Of a stretch of DNA of 52,836 nt, positions 17,970-39,947 are shown piece after piece (the stretch's first letter is position 1; every line of letters starts with the position of its first letter). The translations under genes were made by a program, and so were the position numbers. Under the pieces are notes generated by a model, which saw only the letters and a program-made list of their open reading frames with translations, did not search any database and was not told the origin of the DNA. Where the stretch lies: the IMG/VR virus record IMGVR_UViG_3300040770_000629, positions 1-52,836 of that record; one strand, 5' to 3'. This DNA is from a virus.

Positions 17970-20900
17970 TCAATTTCCTTTTTTGTAAAGTTTTGCAGCT
18001 TTTTTGCCAATGACATCAAGCAATGTATTCGTTGTTCCAATCAAAGCAGGCGATAACACGATTCGGTCTTGAATACTTTTCTGACCGAACACAGCGTCAA
18101 TGATCTCTCCTCTTTCAGTTCTGATCTCTCCAGCCAAGACTTCGGAGAAAACCGTTTTAAGCTGATTACAAAAGACACCCTTATCACCAACCGAAGCAGC
18201 TACATCACTGGTAATATAAAAGCGAATCGCTACAGAGTCCAGTGCCAGAGGCTCACCATCAACACGAAGATCACCATCAACACTTCCAGTCAGAGATGAT
18301 CCGCCAACGGATTTGTTTCTAGCTGTGAGGTCTTTGTCAAACTGTGTACTGATAGATCTGAGGGTCTCAGACATGTCTTCTTTATCACCGTGGTAGAACA
18401 CTTCGATCTTCTCAACGATTCCTTTGGTTTTAGCCGTAGGAGTTTGATTAGACAACAAACGAAGAGTGTTCAAAGATTCGTCATCAAATAATTGAGAATT
18501 ACTGGTGACTGCATCTTCGATTGTGCATAAAATACTCTCAGGCTCCACGAAATCGTTTACTTTGATCAGACCTTTAACCGACTGATCGAACTTTACAACT
18601 ACCGTTTTAACCTTGGTCAGCTTGGTCATCAGTTTTTCAGACAAAGCCTTAGAGATCGATGATGCGTCCTCAAGAGTTTGACTTGATTCGTACAGAACAG
18701 TTTTCGCTGTAATACCAACTTTCCAAATGACTTGCTTAGGGTTGAGCAAATCTCTTTCGAAAAAGCCAGTGTTGTACGAGATGATGTCGCCTTCTTTGAA
18801 CTTATCGCCTATGTTTAAATCACAGGTTACATTGTGAGGAATCACCAAACCAGCAGCGTTACCAAAACGTCTACCGATCTCATAACCCTTAACAGTGCCG
18901 TCAGCATAGCGAATCTGAATGCCTGTTGCATTCTTGCTGATGATTTGTCCGTCTTGTTTTGCTGTCAGTGCAAAAAGATCTGTTGTTCTGTGTGCAAGGA
19001 TTTGCTCATACCCAGTACGCACAGCAGATTGTCTGTAACCTGCACAAGCAATTCCATGACTGTGTTGAACAGAAATGTAGTTGACCCGTTTAGGATCGTC
19101 GTTAGAGGCTCCAGGTGAAAGCAAAGCAGATGTCGAAAGCAATGCTGTCGTATCAATATCACTACCTTCAAAAGGTTTCGTTGTGCCCCGCAGAGATTTG
19201 AATTGTGGATCAGCACTCATGTACGTAATCACAGCGACGTTACCAGAGTCAACGGTAGATTCGGAAATCACACCCATGTCGTTCTTGTGATACTCACGCG
19301 AACTTCTGACCATGCTTCGAGCATTGCGTCCACCTGTACCACTGAAGGTAATGGCTTCGACTTCTTTTAAGTTCTGAATCGGATTGATGTCCGAAATCAA
19401 ACTCATGGAAGGGTCTTGCACCACTCGTTTCCAAACAGCATACGGATGCATCTCTAAAGGTCTTGTAGACTTACCAGAACGAGCACCATGGCCTCGAATC
19501 GATTGAATCAACTCTGAGTACACAGCACCAGCTAAACGCTCGTAGCCCTTGATCCGCATGTACTTCATATCCATCTGATCAGGATGTTTGTCCAACAGCA
19601 AAAGCTCTGAGCTTCTGACCAACAAACCTCTGAACGTGGTAGGTTCTTTCATTTCGACCAACAGATCTTTAGTGATCGGGTCAATGAACAAATTGTTAAG
19701 TAAATCGATTTCTCTTAAGTACCGTGCTGACAAACCAGAAGCTTCCAGAATGTTCAAGTAAACGTTTGGATTGTTCAAACTCTGAGCAGGATACTTTCTC
19801 AACGTTTTATCGTACTGCAAGAATCCAGCAAGAATCATCGTGGCGAGTTTGTCGTCTTTGCTAAATACATACGTCACGTCATTGAAGACAATTGCGTACT
19901 CATCAACATCTAAACCAACTCGCTCACCTGCAGGCACTTTGCGTGGAGATACTTTAAGCATTTCCAACAAATTATCAAAACCCAACTGGTAGGCTAAGAA
20001 AAAGCACACAGGAATGAAAACACCAAAGATTTTGATTTCACTGAACTCAATCGGAGCACTGGCCGCATCGATCTTAAAGAACTCTTCAACGGAGCCTTCC
20101 AAACGAAGATTGTCACCTTCAGCTGTGTACAAAATGTCGTTGGCGTCCATGGTCAGAAATGATCCTTTACCATTAGTGGCTACTACCACTGAACCATCGA
20201 CTTCAAGTTTGTCCAGAACATCTTGACCGAACAGAGCAGCACGTTTGAAATGGTCAAAGTTAAATGTGTAACCCTTGGCTGACAGTGACTTAAATGTCAT
20301 TGCCAAAATAGAGTAAGTCCTTGGACCAGTGAACTGATTGTCAAAAACATTACTGGTTGCAATGTCTGTCACGTCCACGCTAGAATTGTCCAGACCTTTT
20401 TCCATGACACGGTTGGTGAGCCATGTTGCGTAATCGTTGACTTTCTTAGTGTTTCTGCTGACAAATGTTTTACCGTAGTAACTGGTCAAAGCTACAGTGC
20501 CTGGAGAGATCTTCCGAATGGGAAGGTCGCCACGCTGCTTTCTCAATTTGTATTTGGTTCCGTTGTACTTGATCAAACCATCTTCATCGACTGAAGGTAA
20601 TTTAAAACGAAGTGTAGAAGCAACACCTTCTACAGGACGGACACGGATGATGTGGTTCTCGTAATTACCGAGCATGTCTTGCTGTTTCTCAACCGTGTAA
20701 TTGCTCAGAATCACACCACCTTTTTGTACGTTCACAACCATGCTGGCAATGTCTTTAGCCAACACTTTGTTGATGTAGTCCTGATCAAAGTTAAGCAAGC
20801 TTGACTTGAGCATTGACTTATCAATGACTGTCTTGATGTCTGGAATAGCTTTAGATGCAGAAATTGTTAAGTCTTCAGGTGAGATCTTGATGAACTCTTC

Positions 20901-22145
20901 CAAAGTACTCTTACCGTCTGGTGCCAAGATCTTCTTGTAGTTCCCTGCACTGGTGGTCAAGTTTTTGTAGACAGCAGCGGTGAGTAATCCGTCTTCAGCT
21001 AATTTATCACAAATTGCAATCACCGAGCCTTCGTTAGAGACTTCCGTGTGGAAATCTTTAATCACACTTTGTGTTTGTGCTTTGACTATGTTAGGTTGCA
21101 ACTCAACAATAGATTTTTCTTCAATCTTTTCCAAGTCTTCCAGATTACTTTCAAGTTTTTCTAAAAACCTGTCCGCTTTTTCAAGCCGTGATTCTTCATC
21201 TTGTTCAACTTCTTGAGGTGTGTCTAGAGCTTTCTTTTCTTCGACTTCTGTTTCTTGATCAGGATCAACCGGTGAAGTGCGAACAGCCATCAAACTCATC
21301 AACGTAAACAAAAGTCTTTTCTGAAGCTGTGCAGGAGCAATCTTAACTTTCTGAGCTTTTGATTCAGGGTTTTCGTTGTCCTGGTCATAACGCCAACTTT
21401 CCAACACACCTAAGTTAATCATGAGCCAGCTGCCTGACTCTTTGAACACAATGTTGATTTTGGATAAATTGTTTTTATCCAGACCTGCCATCACACCAGA
21501 ATCTCTGCTATCAACACTAAGCCATTTCCACAGCTCTAAAATAAACAAAGACTCTGAACTTGGGAAAACTTTGATCAGAGTACTGTTGGTGATCTTTGAG
21601 TAGTTGTTCAGACTTGTAACACTTGGCAGAATTTTAGGCAAGTCTGTAAAGATGTATTGTTGACGTGAGCTGCTCGAAGCTGAAACATTGACCGTGTTCC
21701 ACAAAGTCTTTTGAATGTTCCACCATTTGTAGTACTCGCTGAAAGTACTGCGAACATAACGGTAGAGTTTCGGAATGAAGTCAAAATTCAAAACCAACAG
21801 CGTCATCTCATCTCTGGTGATGCTGTTGACATCTTTGACATACCGAAAACGTCTGTTGCGTGTATGGTACTCTTTGACGTAAGGCAGAACAGACAAATTG
21901 ACTTTACGAGGAGTGCCTTTAGAGTCAGACAACTCAAGCACGTGGTCCATCAAAATTTGTTTGGTGATCAAACGGAAAAAGTAATCATCCGAAGCAGGAC
22001 CACTTCTAACGCCATCGAGTGTCAAGTAATTTAAAAGACTGTTTCTGGGAAATTCAAACTTATCAAGCGTGCTGATAACGGGTGTCATCAAGTGCTGCGG
22101 CAACCTCACGCCGTGCCTTCTGTAGAACATATCCTGAGTAATCAT
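17970..22145 (-). CDS. Phage RNA polymerase beta subunit, main part (lacks C-terminal clamp region)
   Basis: Multisubunit RNA polymerase beta-like protein, 1391 aa. Matches to bacterial RpoB in the right order: ITFSGTGGRNARSMVRSSRE with YHKNDMGVISESTVDSGNVA (about 930-975) corresponds to the RpoB fork/rifampicin-pocket region (ALGPGGLTRERAGFE...PIETPEGPNIG); CAGYRQSAVRTGYEQIL (about 1035-1055) to NMQRQAVP...GTGME; GDKFKEGDIISYN to the following barrel; SDVAASVGDKGVF (about 1312-1324) to KMAGRHGNKGV; DRIVLSPALIGTTNTLLD (1360-1377) to PSRMNIGQILE. It stops there, where RpoB continues for about 100 residues; a separate gene at 39279-39947 supplies that part. Residues about 298-355 are a charged, acidic, coiled-coil-like segment. 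ATG 22145 has AAAGGA. Gene order matches phiKZ gp178, a virion RNA polymerase subunit. Confidence 0.88.
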   Translation of the reverse strand: MITQDMFYRRHGVRLPQHLMTPVISTLDKFEFPRNSLLNYLTLDGVRSGPASDDYFFRLITKQILMDHVLELSDSKGTPRKVNLSVLPYVKEYHTRNRRFRYVKDVNSITRDEMTLLVLNFDFIPKLYRYVRSTFSEYYKWWNIQKTLWNTVNVSASSSSRQQYIFTDLPKILPSVTSLNNYSKITNSTLIKVFPSSESLFILELWKWLSVDSRDSGVMAGLDKNNLSKINIVFKESGSWLMINLGVLESWRYDQDNENPESKAQKVKIAPAQLQKRLLFTLMSLMAVRTSPVDPDQETEVEEKKALDTPQEVEQDEESRLEKADRFLEKLESNLEDLEKIEEKSIVELQPNIVKAQTQSVIKDFHTEVSNEGSVIAICDKLAEDGLLTAAVYKNLTTSAGNYKKILAPDGKSTLEEFIKISPEDLTISASKAIPDIKTVIDKSMLKSSLLNFDQDYINKVLAKDIASMVVNVQKGGVILSNYTVEKQQDMLGNYENHIIRVRPVEGVASTLRFKLPSVDEDGLIKYNGTKYKLRKQRGDLPIRKISPGTVALTSYYGKTFVSRNTKKVNDYATWLTNRVMEKGLDNSSVDVTDIATSNVFDNQFTGPRTYSILAMTFKSLSAKGYTFNFDHFKRAALFGQDVLDKLEVDGSVVVATNGKGSFLTMDANDILYTAEGDNLRLEGSVEEFFKIDAASAPIEFSEIKIFGVFIPVCFFLAYQLGFDNLLEMLKVSPRKVPAGERVGLDVDEYAIVFNDVTYVFSKDDKLATMILAGFLQYDKTLRKYPAQSLNNPNVYLNILEASGLSARYLREIDLLNNLFIDPITKDLLVEMKEPTTFRGLLVRSSELLLLDKHPDQMDMKYMRIKGYERLAGAVYSELIQSIRGHGARSGKSTRPLEMHPYAVWKRVVQDPSMSLISDINPIQNLKEVEAITFSGTGGRNARSMVRSSREYHKNDMGVISESTVDSGNVAVITYMSADPQFKSLRGTTKPFEGSDIDTTALLSTSALLSPGASNDDPKRVNYISVQHSHGIACAGYRQSAVRTGYEQILAHRTTDLFALTAKQDGQIISKNATGIQIRYADGTVKGYEIGRRFGNAAGLVIPHNVTCDLNIGDKFKEGDIISYNTGFFERDLLNPKQVIWKVGITAKTVLYESSQTLEDASSISKALSEKLMTKLTKVKTVVVKFDQSVKGLIKVNDFVEPESILCTIEDAVTSNSQLFDDESLNTLRLLSNQTPTAKTKGIVEKIEVFYHGDKEDMSETLRSISTQFDKDLTARNKSVGGSSLTGSVDGDLRVDGEPLALDSVAIRFYITSDVAASVGDKGVFCNQLKTVFSEVLAGEIRTERGEIIDAVFGQKSIQDRIVLSPALIGTTNTLLDVIGKKAAKLYKKGN

Positions 22146-22155
22146 TGGAATCCTT

Positions 22156-23793
22156 TTATGTGGTAGCTACTGGATCACCTGTCATGTTTCTAAGAACATA
22201 TGCAACAGTGTCTGTATTTGAACTGTAAGTGATCTTTCCGTCCGTACCAATGTAGTAACGTTTGCTGTTCAGAAAGTTTTTAACCTCTGTGATAGCTTCA
22301 TCGCTGTAGACAGCATTACCCGAACCTGTGTCCCCGTCAAAGTCAGCACCGAGTCTTGACAAGTGAGGACTCGCTGGTGACAAAGAGTCAATGAACTCTG
22401 AGCCTACGATTGGAAACTGGTGAGCAGTATGACTGTCATCCATGGGTTGCCAATTCTCATCAAGCTCCGCTCTTTCTTCAATCAAAACAGTAGGCTTTAA
22501 AAAAACCATACTAGGATAGATTGAGCCGATACCAGTGATAGGATAACGGGTGAAAAAGAGTGGATAATTGTTCGAAGTTTTGTAGACAGAAAGATACAAA
22601 AGTTCACAAAACGTCAAAGGAAACACATCATTCTTTGAACGAGTAGGTGGTAATTCATCGATGTCTTGCATCAATTTGTACGTGTTATCTGGGCCTTTAT
22701 AAATGAGTCCCAAATACTTACCTTCGATCTCAATGGCTTTGTGACGAACAGAAATATCCTTGAAAGATGTCATGACTTTTTCAAGTCCTTCATCAGACAT
22801 CCAAGCATCAATCATCCGTGGTGACACGTCAACAACTTCTTTCTTGAACGTCTTTTTGTTGACCAAGAAAGCAGGTGCATTGGTTCCTGTAAACACCTTG
22901 GATAAGAAACCATTTCTAAGGTTAAACCGGCTCACAGGCATCGTGGCTTTCAAGAACTGATACAGTCCAATGATCGTGTCATTGACATCAATGTTTCCTT
23001 TAGACCCAAGGTCTTTGGAGTTGATGTTCACAGCCGTGATCACGTTACGAGTTCCGTTAAAGATTCGTCTGGAAGCCCACTTACCCATCAGCAGTTTTTT
23101 CTTACCTTGAATCGAGTTTTCAAGCAGATCATAAATCTGGTTGTAAGCCGACTGAATGGAGTAACTGATGGTGTTCAAAATCTCTGGGTTACTGACCACA
23201 GCATCTTTGCTGATGTTGTTAGACAGAGACAAAAGCTTTCTGTACAAATTGTTGATCTCGTTTTCAGACTGACGACCATCGGCTTCAATTTCAAAGTCTC
23301 TCAAACCTGCTGGTAGAACAACCAACTTGCTGAGCATGGTTTTGTCTTTGTATTTGTCAATCAAAGCAATGGTCTGGTCTCTGCGGTCACTGTCAGTCGT
23401 TTTAAAAACAATATCTTTCCAGTGATCACGAAAGAATTGAAAACCTGTTTGACCTTTGAGTGGATCAGACTTGATAAAGTCTTTTTCCTCTTCACTCCAA
23501 GTGGCGTAGGTCTTACCAGCAATGATCTCACCGTACATCTTCTTGAGCTTGGTCAGTGCTCTGTAAATAGTGGGATGGAAAATAGAGATCTTCACGTCGA
23601 TGTAGGAGAACCTGCGGCTTCTTCTTTCATCTCCTACTTTACCAAAGATACTGACAGAAAACAAACCACTTTCGTGAAAATTCTTTGTAGCACCAATAAA
23701 GGTGTCAAGCACAGTGACTGGCTTTAAGCCCACTAGCTTATCATCCGTCAGGTTAAGAAGCGTGACGTTAAATGGCACATTTATGTTACTCAT
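22156..23793 (-). CDS. Phage RNA polymerase beta-prime subunit, N-terminal half
   Basis: 545-aa homologue of the N-terminal half of beta-prime, carrying the catalytic double-psi barrel. LGADFDGDTGSG at 481-492 is the invariant NADFDGD signature whose three aspartates (here D484, D486, D488) hold the catalytic Mg2+. Upstream, KKLLMGKWASRRIFNGTRNV (about 230-250) matches the RFRQNLLGKRVDYSGRSVI region. The protein ends about 57 residues after the catalytic motif, so bridge helix, trigger loop and the rest of beta-prime must be on another gene (phiKZ splits in the same way, gp180/gp80); I did not find it in this window. ATG 23793 has AAAAGG. The first gene of the minus operon, 10 nt before beta and divergent from the giant tail gene. 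Confidence 0.9.
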   Translation of the reverse strand: MSNINVPFNVTLLNLTDDKLVGLKPVTVLDTFIGATKNFHESGLFSVSIFGKVGDERRSRRFSYIDVKISIFHPTIYRALTKLKKMYGEIIAGKTYATWSEEEKDFIKSDPLKGQTGFQFFRDHWKDIVFKTTDSDRRDQTIALIDKYKDKTMLSKLVVLPAGLRDFEIEADGRQSENEINNLYRKLLSLSNNISKDAVVSNPEILNTISYSIQSAYNQIYDLLENSIQGKKKLLMGKWASRRIFNGTRNVITAVNINSKDLGSKGNIDVNDTIIGLYQFLKATMPVSRFNLRNGFLSKVFTGTNAPAFLVNKKTFKKEVVDVSPRMIDAWMSDEGLEKVMTSFKDISVRHKAIEIEGKYLGLIYKGPDNTYKLMQDIDELPPTRSKNDVFPLTFCELLYLSVYKTSNNYPLFFTRYPITGIGSIYPSMVFLKPTVLIEERAELDENWQPMDDSHTAHQFPIVGSEFIDSLSPASPHLSRLGADFDGDTGSGNAVYSDEAITEVKNFLNSKRYYIGTDGKITYSSNTDTVAYVLRNMTGDPVATT

Positions 23794-35401: not shown

Positions 35402-35995
35402 TTAAGTTGGCTGTTCAGCACTTTGCTTGAATCTGCCTGGGTTTGTTTTGGCACTCTGAATTGCTTTTGAATCAATTTGAGATTCAAAGAAAAATATATT
35501 GATCAACACAAGAGTGGTAAGCCATTTGTTGTTTGAGAGTGTTTTTTCAATTTCATCAGAATACAAACTCATGTTTTGTAGGTAAACTTTTGGTATTAAG
35601 CAAAAGCTGTTGTCAAGATCTTTTTCTTCTTGAAAGCTAGAAATACAATCAGCCAGATACTTGACCAAATCAAACCCAAAGCTGTTTTTGTAACCGATGC
35701 GATGAGAAAGTTTATCTGTCAAGTTAAAGACAAAGTCACGAATGTCTTCATCTTCAAGAACAAGCTTGCCCATGATAGCCAAGTTGTTCTCAGTAAAGAA
35801 AACATGAAGCTTTCTTTGCACTGAAAGGTTCAAACAAAACAGTGCAATCTTGGGTTGTTCCTTTTCAGTAAGTTTTGAGAACTCTGTGGCAAAAGCTTTT
35901 TCAAACTGTTCAGACAGAACTTCAAAAATGTTTACTTGAGTGAGTAAACCAGAAAGTTCATTAGGGTGAGCGGTTAATTCATTTTGTTGATTCAT
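35402..35995 (-). CDS. Unknown protein, 197 aa
   Basis: Not recognised. ATG at 35995 is preferred: GGAG lies about 9 nt upstream, while the longer frame starts with TTG at 36043. This start lies inside the end of the preceding gene (stop at 35979), a 17-nt overlap that implies coupled translation. Helical, acidic N-terminal region followed by a Phe/Leu-rich body and basic C-terminal tail; no export signal. Confidence 0.65.
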   Translation of the reverse strand: MNQQNELTAHPNELSGLLTQVNIFEVLSEQFEKAFATEFSKLTEKEQPKIALFCLNLSVQRKLHVFFTENNLAIMGKLVLEDEDIRDFVFNLTDKLSHRIGYKNSFGFDLVKYLADCISSFQEEKDLDNSFCLIPKVYLQNMSLYSDEIEKTLSNNKWLTTLVLINIFFFESQIDSKAIQSAKTNPGRFKQSAEQPT

Positions 35996-36473
35996 GTTCG
36001 GATTTCTCCATTTCTTGTTCACTGGCTTCGGGTTGCTCGCCAACGTTCAGTGCGTTGGGCAGTTCAATGCCTTCAGAATCGTCTTCTTCAGACTGAGGTC
36101 CAAGGATGATTGTCTTAGAGTGCACAGATACGTGTTTGACGTGATGAATTTTAATGATCAAATCAAACTTGATGTAGCCGATCAGACGCATACCTTTGCA
36201 AAATACTTTCCACGTCATCTTTGACTTATGGAGAAGTTCTTTGTTCAAATTGCCACGTTCAGAGGACTGCTCACGATTGTTAGACGGAATAGAGTTTCTT
36301 GGATCTTTGATGTAACGAGTCATCGAATCGTTCCATCTTTGAAAACCAACATTTGTCTCCTGCAAGATCATTGCAAAAAGTGCTGAGAGAATACTGTCAG
36401 AACCACCAGACTGATTAGCTCTTTGTTTGAGCCGGTTTGGTGAGAACACATTGTTTCTGTTGTTTGATGACAT
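35979..36473 (-). CDS. Unknown protein, 164 aa
   Basis: Not recognised. N-terminal 75 residues Asn/Ser/Arg-rich, then a compact hydrophobic/basic core (MTWKVFCKGMRLIGYIKFDL at about 85-104, then HHVKHVSVHSKTIILG), and a strongly acidic C-terminal tail (SEEDDSEGIE to the end). The start ATG 36473 has a poor ribosome binding site. It overlaps the downstream gene by 17 nt. The pattern core plus acidic tail occurs in inner-head and DNA-interacting phage proteins, but nothing here is specific. Confidence 0.62.
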   Translation of the reverse strand: MSSNNRNNVFSPNRLKQRANQSGGSDSILSALFAMILQETNVGFQRWNDSMTRYIKDPRNSIPSNNREQSSERGNLNKELLHKSKMTWKVFCKGMRLIGYIKFDLIIKIHHVKHVSVHSKTIILGPQSEEDDSEGIELPNALNVGEQPEASEQEMEKSEHESTK

Positions 36474-36533: not shown

Positions 36534-37052
36534 TCAATCGGGCGAATCTTGCAATTGAAGTAAACTTTGTATTGTTTGCTCCAAGCGAGATGAAAAACCG
36601 CTTAAATATAAAGCGTTTCTGTTGTCGATTGGATCGGTACTGTTTCGGAGTTGATTAAAGAGTTCGAAATAGTCTTTAGTCCTTTCTTTGAAAACTTTCA
36701 CATAAGAAGCCTCATCAATGTAGTTACCTTTCTCAGAGAGAAAGAAAACGCTCACATCGATAGTTAGTAAGGGTTCAGCATATAAAGAACTATATATGGT
36801 TTTTTTACCTTTGATGTGGATACACAAGACTTTTAATTCGTCATTTATTTCCATCAAGCTTTTGAACTGAGACTTGACAGTTTTTAATGAATTAGCAGAT
36901 GAGTTAAATCCCTCAAACCCAGAAGGGTCTAATTCATCAATTTTTTCTTTGAGAATATCTAAGGTTGTTTTTTCCTTGACTAAAAAAGATTTGATAAATG
37001 TCAGTAAAGTGTCTATCTTACCGACGTACCAATGGTGAAATTTTAGCAGCAT
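36534..37052 (-). CDS. Unknown protein, 172 aa
   Basis: Not recognised. Helical protein with a basic, hydrophobic N-terminus (LLKFHHWYVGKIDTLLTFIK) that is not a convincing signal peptide, and a central beta region (ELKVLCIHIKGKKTIYS). ATG 37052 is preceded only by a weak GAG. First gene of a minus unit running to 34524, divergent from 37175-37609. Confidence 0.62.
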   Translation of the reverse strand: MLLKFHHWYVGKIDTLLTFIKSFLVKEKTTLDILKEKIDELDPSGFEGFNSSANSLKTVKSQFKSLMEINDELKVLCIHIKGKKTIYSSLYAEPLLTIDVSVFFLSEKGNYIDEASYVKVFKERTKDYFELFNQLRNSTDPIDNRNALYLSGFSSRLEQTIQSLLQLQDSPD

Positions 37053-37616: not shown

Positions 37617-37664
37617 GAGCATAACACTAGTAAGAGGTTCGCCCCCTTACTAGTGTTACTTATG
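37617..37664. terminator. Bidirectional hairpin at the 37609/37660 convergent junction
   Basis: Perfect 13-bp stem TAACACTAGTAAG (37622-37634) with 37646-37658; the loop contains GGTTCGCC. Left flank GAGCA, right flank CTTATGCC. No U-run on +; on - the exit is TGCTCTAAAAATT. It overlaps the stop codon of the minus gene (37660). Confidence 0.78.
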
Positions 37665-38391
37665 CCTTTACTTTTTCAATTCGTATACTTGCGCAAAACA
37701 AATCGATGTCGTAAAGCTTCAAATCGATGAAAGTGCTTGAGACCATTTCAAGCATTCTCAGCGGGTGCATGGTGTCTCTGATCATCTCCACCATCTCAGC
37801 AGGCGTAGGTTCTCTGATAAAATAAATACCAGGAACAATCACACTGTATTGTGGACAAGGGGTTTTCTGAAAGTTTTCAGCCTGTGCTTCTAGCCATGGG
37901 GCGTAGTCATACATGAAGAGAATAGACAGATTGTCTTTAATGAACTGAGGTGTCAGCGTAGCAGGAGGCATGTTGACAGCTTGAATGTCACAAACTTTGT
38001 TTGTAGCATAAACCATGCCTTCAACGATTGCATTTTCTTCTTCTTTCTCAAGAGCGTAAGGATAAGTATTAATGAAGATTTTAGGACCAGCATGAACAGG
38101 AGAGTTGACGGCTTGGCTAGTCATGGTGATGACTAACTCTTTGATAAACCCAATGGCTTTGGTCACCACAGCTTGTCTCAAAGTGTTTTTGTCTCTAGCC
38201 TTGTAAGCTTTGTCGAACTCTTCCTTGTCTACACCTTTGAACGTATCGGTTTTTCTCTCGAAGTACTTCTCGTTAAAAGCTTCATTAATCTTGTCCTCAC
38301 CCATCAAGAAGATAGTAGCCAGGCGTGTATCAAGCAAGGCATCCAACTCAATGTAGATGCCTTGCTTTTTGTTATACTCTTCCTTACCCAT
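37660..38391 (-). CDS. Unknown protein downstream of the homing endonuclease, 243 aa
   Basis: Not recognised. Mixed alpha/beta soluble protein; notable segments are IYIELDALLDTRLATIFLMG near the N-terminus and PQYSVIVPGIYFIREPTPAE near residue 185-204. The ribosome binding site AAAAAGGA of ATG 38391 is formed by the last codons of the endonuclease gene, whose stop is 2 nt upstream of this start. Translation therefore probably depends on, or evolved with, the inserted endonuclease. Its stop TAA is part of GGCATAA of the terminal hairpin. Confidence 0.7.
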   Translation of the reverse strand: MGKEEYNKKQGIYIELDALLDTRLATIFLMGEDKINEAFNEKYFERKTDTFKGVDKEEFDKAYKARDKNTLRQAVVTKAIGFIKELVITMTSQAVNSPVHAGPKIFINTYPYALEKEEENAIVEGMVYATNKVCDIQAVNMPPATLTPQFIKDNLSILFMYDYAPWLEAQAENFQKTPCPQYSVIVPGIYFIREPTPAEMVEMIRDTMHPLRMLEMVSSTFIDLKLYDIDLFCASIRIEKVKA

Positions 38392-38392
38392 G

Positions 38393-39190
38393 CTATTCCT
38401 TTTTATACCAACCAGGATAGTTGTCGCTAGCTATTCTGTAAACAATAGATTGTTTTGTCATACCTAGCTTTCTACCTGCATCGGTCAAAGATTCATATTC
38501 AATATCATCTCCTACAACTGAAACTTTATTTGGTGCAATCATTTTACCTATCCTTGCAACTCTCTGCGTTTCTCTGTATGTAGGATCTTTCCATTTTTCA
38601 GTAATGTAATTACTGTTTCTTTCTTTGAATTCGTCTGTTCTAGTTTGTCCAATTAAGGATTTCCTGTTACCTGCTGCGTAACTTTCAGATATCTTTTCTG
38701 ACAAAATTTTACTAATCTCTCTTTTTCTTTCCGGTGTTATAGCAGATTTACCAGCGTTTGCTGCTGCAACATTTTTCTCTCTGAAATTTGGATCTTTCCA
38801 AAGATTGAGAGCTGCTTGTCTATTTTTTTCTATAGACTCTTCCGAATGTTTGTAACCTGTCATAGGTTTTTCAACATCCATGCAGATGTTAAGAAGGCAC
38901 GGATTTCCTTTTAATTCATTTATCGTAATTTGTTCTAACGCTAACGCAGCTTTTCTCTTTTCTTCTAGGGTATCTCCTTCTACAGGTACACCTACGAATT
39001 GAAAATTTGGGTCTTGATTATACGCTTTTTGGAACTTGTAATTCCAGTGCTCATTTCTATTTAGTTTATATTCATGAGTTTTTCTACGTTTTTCTAAGTT
39101 ACCACTACCTACGTAAATTTTGTCTGTTATTGGATTATGAATAACATAAAAACCTAGAACAACATTTTTTTGAGATGAATCAGATTCCAT
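38393..39190 (-). CDS. GIY-YIG homing endonuclease with NUMOD DNA-binding modules
   Basis: Free-standing homing endonuclease, 265 aa. GIY-YIG nuclease domain at residues 12-100: GFYVIHNP (the GIY part) and KIYVGSGNLEKRR (the YIG part, Y26-G28, with Arg35 following), H39, then conserved ALEQITINEL with a likely metal-binding glutamate. NUMOD3-like repeats follow (GYKHSEESIEKNRQAALN and similar lysine-rich copies to about 210), then a C-terminal helix-turn-helix (YESLTDAGRKLGMTKQSIVY). Such enzymes cut alleles lacking the gene and spread by repair. The gene is more AT-rich than its neighbours, consistent with recent arrival. It lies between the RNA polymerase beta C-terminal gene and 37660-38391. 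ATG 39190 has GAGGT 7 nt upstream, buried in a hairpin. Confidence 0.9.
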   Translation of the reverse strand: MESDSSQKNVVLGFYVIHNPITDKIYVGSGNLEKRRKTHEYKLNRNEHWNYKFQKAYNQDPNFQFVGVPVEGDTLEEKRKAALALEQITINELKGNPCLLNICMDVEKPMTGYKHSEESIEKNRQAALNLWKDPNFREKNVAAANAGKSAITPERKREISKILSEKISESYAAGNRKSLIGQTRTDEFKERNSNYITEKWKDPTYRETQRVARIGKMIAPNKVSVVGDDIEYESLTDAGRKLGMTKQSIVYRIASDNYPGWYKKE

Positions 39191-39194
39191 TTTT

Positions 39195-39264
39195 ATACCT
39201 CACACAAAAACTATTACATATAATAGAAACAAGACTATTTGTAATATGCATCTGTGTAAGGTAT
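39195..39264 (-). promoter_or_regulatory. Hairpin burying the homing endonuclease ribosome binding site
   Basis: ATACCT-C-ACACA (39195-39206) pairs with TGTGT-A-AGGTAT (39253-39264), 11 of 12 positions, enclosing a perfect CTATTA/TAATAG hairpin (39211-39226). Read on the minus strand, the 3' arm contains GAGGT, the Shine-Dalgarno of the endonuclease ATG at 39190. In a transcript from upstream genes this signal would be paired and translation reduced. Confidence 0.6.
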
Positions 39265-39278
39265 TTGTATCTTTACGT

Positions 39279-39947
39279 CTAGAGCGAACTTGAGATGTGC
39301 ATGGCAGTCAAGTATGCCTTCAATGTCATCGTTGACTCTACACCGCCTGCAAGCCCTTTGATAGCCATCATGCTAACGCCACCTGTTTTACTGATGGAGT
39401 CATTCATTGCATCAAAACCTTTGATGTCACCACCCCGGAACTTCAAGAACTCAATCAAGCAGTTATCCAGTCCCATAGCTGCCATCACCTGAGTCTCAGG
39501 GAAAGACATTTTACTGCCTTTAGATCTACCGGTAGGTTGACCGGTAAAATCGTCAATGACTTTGTTGTCTTCAGGAATAGAAATCTTCTTGATGAGCACT
39601 TGAGCTTGACGACGAACAGGAAGGTCTACCACCAAGTAAGGAATAGGGGTGAGGTACGTAGGCATGTCGCCTGTTCCCTCAATCCAAACCCTCTGGAAGA
39701 ACTCGTGACCTAGCTCTTTAGCCAGCTCAAGGTTTCTTTCGGTGGAGACACCTTCTTGACCGAAGTTAGGAACAATCACAGCTAATCGACTCTCGCCTGA
39801 CTCCAAATCAGTCATGAACTTATCAAAAGCTTCATCACTCATTTCATCAAACAACTCGACGTAAATCTGTTTGTTCTTACCACCTGGGGCAAGTTTACCT
39901 ATTTGTTCAATGATAAAGTTTTGAGCGATTTGTCGATTGGGGGTCAT
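39279..39947 (-). CDS. RNA polymerase beta C-terminal subunit (phiKZ gp149 type)
   Basis: 222-aa protein resembling the C-terminal region of RpoB that the 1391-aa beta protein lacks. The segment [20 protein letters not shown] followed by [20 protein letters not shown] (about 139-178) aligns in order with RpoB [62 protein letters not shown] upstream corresponds to the [20 protein letters not shown] strand pair. In RNA polymerase this part packs against beta-prime and forms part of the clamp base. ATG 39947 overlaps the stop of the preceding gene (ATGA). It lies about 17 kb from the beta gene, downstream of a RecA-like gene. The assignment rests on reading the motifs by eye. Confidence 0.72.
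   Translation of the reverse strand: [222 protein letters not shown]

Follow-up and report, generated by a model that had tools for sequence, protein, structure and literature searches.

Free-standing GIY-YIG endonucleases, as well as homing endonuclease genes near essential phage genes, are already known (PMC2988022; PMC10448857). The Seg enzymes of phage T4 cut endonuclease-free relatives during mixed infection and repair copies their genes into these relatives, and the sites cut by the free-standing enzymes can be separated from the enzyme's own gene by hundreds or even thousands of bp (PMC2988022). Hairpins over the ribosome-binding site restrain the translation of I-TevI, mobE and segB in T4-like phages (PMC2988022). 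In jumbo phages, the C-terminal part of the beta subunit is a standard component of the virion RNA polymerase (RNAP) (PMC7598289). A gene of this polymerase, phiKZ gp178, is nicked by the intron-encoded HNH endonuclease gp210 of phage phiPA3 (PMC11620839). As separate phage nuclei of chimalliviruses can block repair, a cut like that of phiPA3 gp210 in phiKZ gp178 can become interference (PMC11620839).

The stretch of DNA analyzed here (the window), an IMG/VR fragment of 52,836 bases, contains a putative homing endonuclease gene directly beside a gene for the C-terminal part of such a virion RNAP beta subunit (Table 1). The open reading frame, which starts with ATG and ends with TAG, matched the profile PHROG_314 "homing endonuclease" (7e-18). 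Matches to the Pfam families I-TevI_DNA-bd (6e-4), NUMOD3 (0.04) and GIY-YIG (0.047) were all below the curated cut-offs. The claim of the preliminary description that the protein carries NUMOD modules is therefore weak, yet an I-TevI-type helix-turn-helix (HTH) was found in addition, which provides the separate C-terminal DNA-binding region. This module matched PF20987 above the cut-off (5.8e-8) in the endonuclease of the related locus L041. The motif residues Tyr, Arg, His, Glu and Asn are present in the catalytic domain, and G13, Y15, Y26, G28, R35, H39, E86 and N101 were invariant in five of five full-length members, namely the window protein and four relatives sharing 37-42% identity with it. 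An AlphaFold model, based on an alignment of five sequences, was confident for both the N-terminal domain and the C-terminal HTH. Its top PDB match in Foldseek was the catalytic domain of I-TevI (1ln0/1mk0; E 1e-5, probability 1.0), and the DNA-binding domain of I-TevI (1i3j) ranked fourth. Family, fold and residues thus predict a GIY-YIG homing endonuclease of the I-TevI/Seg type.

Table 1. Coordinates and supporting evidence of the features discussed (window positions unless a locus is named).
Feature	Location	Strand	Evidence
Predicted gene of a GIY-YIG homing endonuclease (265 aa), free-standing	38393..39190	(-)	ORF, PHROG_314, model and Foldseek matches to I-TevI
Predicted GIY-YIG catalytic domain, aa 13-101 (Y15, Y26, G28, R35, H39, E86, N101 intact)	38888..39154	(-)	Invariant columns, pLDDT about 90, 1ln0/1mk0
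Predicted I-TevI-type HTH DNA-binding module, C-terminal, aa 224-261	38408..38521	(-)	PF20987 6e-4 (below curated cut-off), 1i3j
Predicted hairpin in the endonuclease 5′ untranslated region, 3′ arm with GAGG Shine-Dalgarno-like sequence	39195..39264	(-)	Folding
Homologue of phiKZ gp149, encoding the C-terminal subunit of virion RNAP beta	39279..39947	(-)	PHROG_3233
phiKZ gp147 homologue	37660..38391	(-)	PHROG_3328, 8e-55
gp148-like gene	35402..36007	(-)	28% identity to FLC9 gp50, 4e-14
Large virion-RNAP beta part	17970-22145		PHROG_3148
Other RNAP subunit	22156-23793		PHROG_2986
Short GIY-YIG-like genes, FLC9 clade	FLC9 gp51 (L001:8666-9049), L019:4853-5239, L035:4835-5275, L041:6001-6390, others		

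Rfam searches of the window and of five related loci with an endonuclease gene gave no group I intron; hence the gene is not located inside such a self-splicing element but free-standing, as had been proposed. The assumed AT-richness was likewise correct, with the gene exhibiting a GC content of 0.34 (window: 0.424) and a GC3 of 0.23 compared to 0.47-0.48 in its neighbors. Two more AT-rich genes (36534-37052 and 35402-36007; GC 0.34-0.35) are located downstream.

The upstream neighbor, rightly recognized beforehand as an RNA polymerase fragment gene, matched PHROG_3233 "RNA polymerase beta subunit" with 2.5e-83. As its homologue phiKZ gp149 is annotated as a structural head protein, the polymerase in question is the virion RNAP and not the non-virion RNAP. 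The gene on the other side, initially listed as unknown, could be identified as the homologue of phiKZ gp147. The stop codon of gp149 is followed by 88 nt, the endonuclease gene, a single nucleotide and the ATG of gp147. A chimallin homologue was matched in the contigs of the relatives L021, L030, L034, L043, L044 and L053, with no match within the 52.8-kb window fragment. The host of the gene is described as a gp149-bearing, Chimalliviridae-like jumbo phage. In phiKZ, too, endonucleases and polymerase genes are found in company: the HNH endonuclease gp56 (L141:24202-25206) is encoded directly 3′ of the non-virion RNAP gene gp55, and gp72 (L141:39487-40437), a gene with no assigned function, lies between two RNAP genes.

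The 88-nt leader of the endonuclease gene folds into a hairpin of -29.4 kcal/mol (z = -5.1), a value equalled by none of 200 shuffled sequences. Hairpins unrelated to it precede the endonucleases of L041 (z -4.3) and L047 (z -2.6), and folding of the leaders gave none in the remaining two of the five carriers (L006 and L027). The hairpin of the window probably delays translation of the endonuclease, a regulatory role in line with its position over the Shine-Dalgarno-like sequence. An early-promoter motif, TATATTAC, occurs with one mismatch before the gene (39241-39248), but as 26 such matches were counted in the window with 24 being expected, no promoter is claimed. The motif CATATTAC precedes both the endonuclease start and the gene starting at 37052 and is not enriched in the window.

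For a comparison of the locus among relatives, 80 IMG/VR loci, which are metagenomic contigs and in some cases cut at their ends, were retrieved via gp149 and the stretch from gp149 to gp147 was read in each; gp147 as query gave no matches in viral contigs. Only three of these 80 polymerase-anchored loci (L027, L041, L047) carry a full-length endonuclease 3′ of gp149. To these are added L006, retrieved with the endonuclease as query, and the window, neither of which stems from an unbiased search. Most of the relatives with a readable junction contain no full-length endonuclease there, and in the gp149 tree the carriers do not group together (five changes for five carriers) but each have endonuclease-free relatives nearby. 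The comparison with relatives lacking the gene, as suggested in the preliminary description, thus revealed a patchy distribution and contradicts the view that all relatives carry the endonuclease at this site. The endonuclease is more diverged than gp149, which, with five sequences, fits repeated transfer as well as vertical inheritance combined with repeated loss.

In most of the 80 loci the junction is occupied by a gp148-like gene. In about 15 loci gp149 directly abuts gp147, and many of these resemble the window in having gp148 at a distance of about 2 kb downstream. The gap between gp149 and gp147 amounts to -4 to +7 nt in unoccupied relatives with the gene order of the window, and in some of them, such as L021 and L031, the two genes abut or overlap. 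A displacement of gp148 by the endonuclease was considered and rejected, as endonuclease-free relatives share the window order and gp148 is equally placed about 2 kb downstream in L021, L031, L054, L055 and L063. The junction accepts other cargo too, as YspA/SLOG-type genes lie between gp149 and gp147 in several loci (L014:4677-5150, L015:4676-5080, L050:4687-5091, L058:7411-7860). PF10686 was matched in those of L014 and L015, and the junction of L058 also contains a muramidase and other ORFs.

Occupied and empty alleles of one and the same locus were found in relatives (L047/L044; L041 compared to L030/L032), not among close relatives of the window. The best gp149 relative of the window in the collections shares 62% of its amino acids, no close endonuclease-free relative was found there, and an alignment of the window junction with that of L021 was too diverged for mapping the insertion. 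The insertion boundaries in the window are therefore deduced and lack single-base precision, while the case for homing of the window gene is built on relatives whose endonucleases are 37-42% identical to its own.

The nucleotide identity between the loci L047 and L044 amounts to 97.8% on one side of the insertion and 98.8% on the other. The empty allele of L044 reads GATAACAC-ACTCGTCC-AGGAATAAGCATGG, with gp149 ending in ...NTLVQE and a stop codon (...GAT AAC ACA CTC GTC CAG GAA TAA GCATGG). The occupied allele of L047 reads GATAACAC-CTTAACTTCAGATTAA...endonuclease...TAGGAATAAGCATGG, with gp149 ending in ...GAT AAC ACC TTA ACT TCA GAT TAA before the endonuclease. As the former last codons of gp149 (..AG GAA TAA) persist downstream of the endonuclease, the element must have entered the coding sequence four codons before the stop and brought a replacement tail along. 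The endonuclease of L047 (L047:4549-5199) ends at the insertion junction without the C-terminal HTH, and this copy may be inactive or altered in its specificity. In L041, an endonuclease of 264 aa is inserted at the same gp149 codons as in L047. While gp149 ends in ...NTL in the empty loci L030, L032 and L035, where its stop codon shares nucleotides with the ATG that follows (TGATGG), it ends in ...NTGLN in L041 and is followed by the endonuclease, the stop of which overlaps the same ATG (TAATGG). L041 and its endonuclease-free or remnant-bearing relatives are 91-99% identical. Two of them, L043 and L036, are 99% identical to L041, but an internal deletion of 777 bp has left no more of their endonuclease than its final 60 nt, so that they represent a decayed copy.

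Further patterns near the gp149 3′ end were examined. A cluster of seven synonymous changes in the 40 nt beside the L041 insertion was rejected as proof of co-conversion, as similar patches were found elsewhere. The NTGLN tail is suggestive of an insertion footprint and was rejected as a strict one, as it is also a diverged allele in L029, L037 and L020. L020 and L019 are 98.6% identical and yet their gp149 ends differ (NTGLN and NQL) with no endonuclease present, which possibly reflects an earlier insertion. Nucleotide conservation does not peak at the gp149 3′ end, and the idea of a conserved target was dropped.

At the 5′ end of gp149, a different GIY-YIG gene, whose frame contains one internal stop, is found inside the first codons in L053 (L053:3184-4014). 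It takes up the gp149 start and 13 codons, and gp149 begins anew with a substitute N-terminus; no such gene is present at this position in the relatives L070 and L067. These alleles show endonuclease genes being gained, decaying and being lost at either end of a single polymerase gene, a pattern as produced by a homing element. The preliminary description had named the equivalent locus of related phages, possibly the polymerase gene itself, as the likely target; this was a good guess for the insertion locus, because the occupied and empty pairs of the relatives map the insertion to within the terminal gp149 codons.

The explanation we favor, with a probability of roughly 0.78, is that of a free-standing homing element similar to Seg and I-TevI, which has the 3′ end of gp149 as its insertion locus and spreads by intronless homing. 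During mixed infection, the enzyme would cut the matching region of a related phage without the endonuclease gene, with the cut site probably lying in or near gp149. Repair templated on the carrier genome would then copy the gene in, along with adjoining polymerase codons. The insertion locus would be the 3′ end of gp149, where in relatives an insertion within the last few codons supplies substitute codons and a stop, so that the polymerase would stay functional. The hairpin over the ribosome-binding site would restrain translation of read-through transcripts until late. We infer the activity of the endonuclease, its timing and a competitive benefit.

It is possible, though rather unlikely, that the endonuclease is, as proposed in the preliminary description, retained as a weapon that cuts the virion RNAP gene of co-infecting relatives and thereby reduces their progeny. 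A direct precedent within the Chimalliviridae is given by phiPA3 gp210, whose target is a different gene of this virion RNAP (PMC11620839), and the insertion locus is indeed the gene for the C-terminal part of virion RNAP beta. Moreover, the chimallin homologue encoded by close relatives makes separate, repair-blocking phage nuclei plausible. However, phiPA3 gp210 is an intron-encoded HNH enzyme and not a GIY-YIG enzyme, and the patchy presence and decay of the element (L043, L036, L053, L047) are compatible with a selfish cycle that brings the phage no benefit. That the window gene itself has lost its function and is left over from a previous homing event appears improbable. Decay is common at this locus, as seen from the deletion in L043 and L036, the internal stop in L053 and the loss of the HTH in L047, but the window gene is full-length, its product lacks neither the C-terminal HTH nor any of the catalytic residues, and it retains its start, the Shine-Dalgarno-like sequence and tight junctions.

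Phages of the FLC9 clade encode a short GIY-YIG-like protein of about 127 aa immediately upstream of gp148. FLC9 gp51 and its orthologues have lost the DNA-binding tail and exhibit an Ala in place of the catalytic Arg. As their length is constant and purifying selection is evident (omega 0.05-0.27), they represent a conserved gene lacking the catalytic Arg and not a dead remnant, and are probably a domesticated homing-endonuclease domain. Although this conserved protein in the same neighborhood offers a model for it, a domesticated function of the window protein outside homing, for example in processing or repair, is very improbable, as the window protein has Arg35 and a DNA-binding tail and its gene is far more AT-rich than its neighbors and absent from most relatives.

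Within the favored explanation of a homing element at gp149, the kind of element is known and the insertion site appears to be new. A literature search, with subscription journals mostly outside its scope, found no paper on a GIY-YIG endonuclease at the virion RNAP beta C-terminal gene. In the literature searched, one chimallivirus homing endonuclease has been experimentally tied to phage competition, and it acts on a virion RNAP beta gene. The presence of independent intron-less GIY-YIG genes at both ends of gp149 suggests that the packaged polymerase may be a repeated target of homing. Only tentatively, both gp149 ends might be regarded as a hot spot to which homing elements of chimallivirus-like phages return, with at least two GIY-YIG subfamilies replacing terminal codons and their enzymes cutting the virion RNAP gene of competitors. 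If true, conflict between phages would, together with the case of phiPA3 gp210, have converged on the packaged polymerase as a target. The alleles described here, whether occupied, empty or decayed, are ready DNA substrates for testing the polymerase as homing target.

Among annotated phage genomes, the closest protein by coverage is the putative GIY-YIG nuclease gp69 of Burkholderia phage FLC6 (28% identity over 92%), the gene of which, however, has a different location, flanked by a virion structural gene and a cupin gene. The window endonuclease shares with phiPA3 gp210 the tie of a homing endonuclease to a Chimalliviridae virion RNAP beta. It is not an HNH nuclease in an intron: while gp210 is intron-encoded, concerns the other half of beta and has a demonstrated effect on competition, the window gene is free-standing and encodes a GIY-YIG enzyme that may affect competition. 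With I-TevI, encoded in the td intron of T4, it shares the catalytic fold and residues, the C-terminal HTH and the hairpin covering the ribosome-binding site, but I-TevI lies in a group I intron of the thymidylate synthase gene, whereas the window gene is intron-less and lies beside the virion RNAP beta C-terminal gene. Like SegA to SegG of T4, it is a free-standing GIY-YIG gene between conserved genes, in the orientation of its neighbors and present or absent among relatives. It differs from the Seg genes in phage lineage and site, and, unlike a purely intergenic Seg insertion, the insertion in two of its relatives replaces the terminal codons of a gene.
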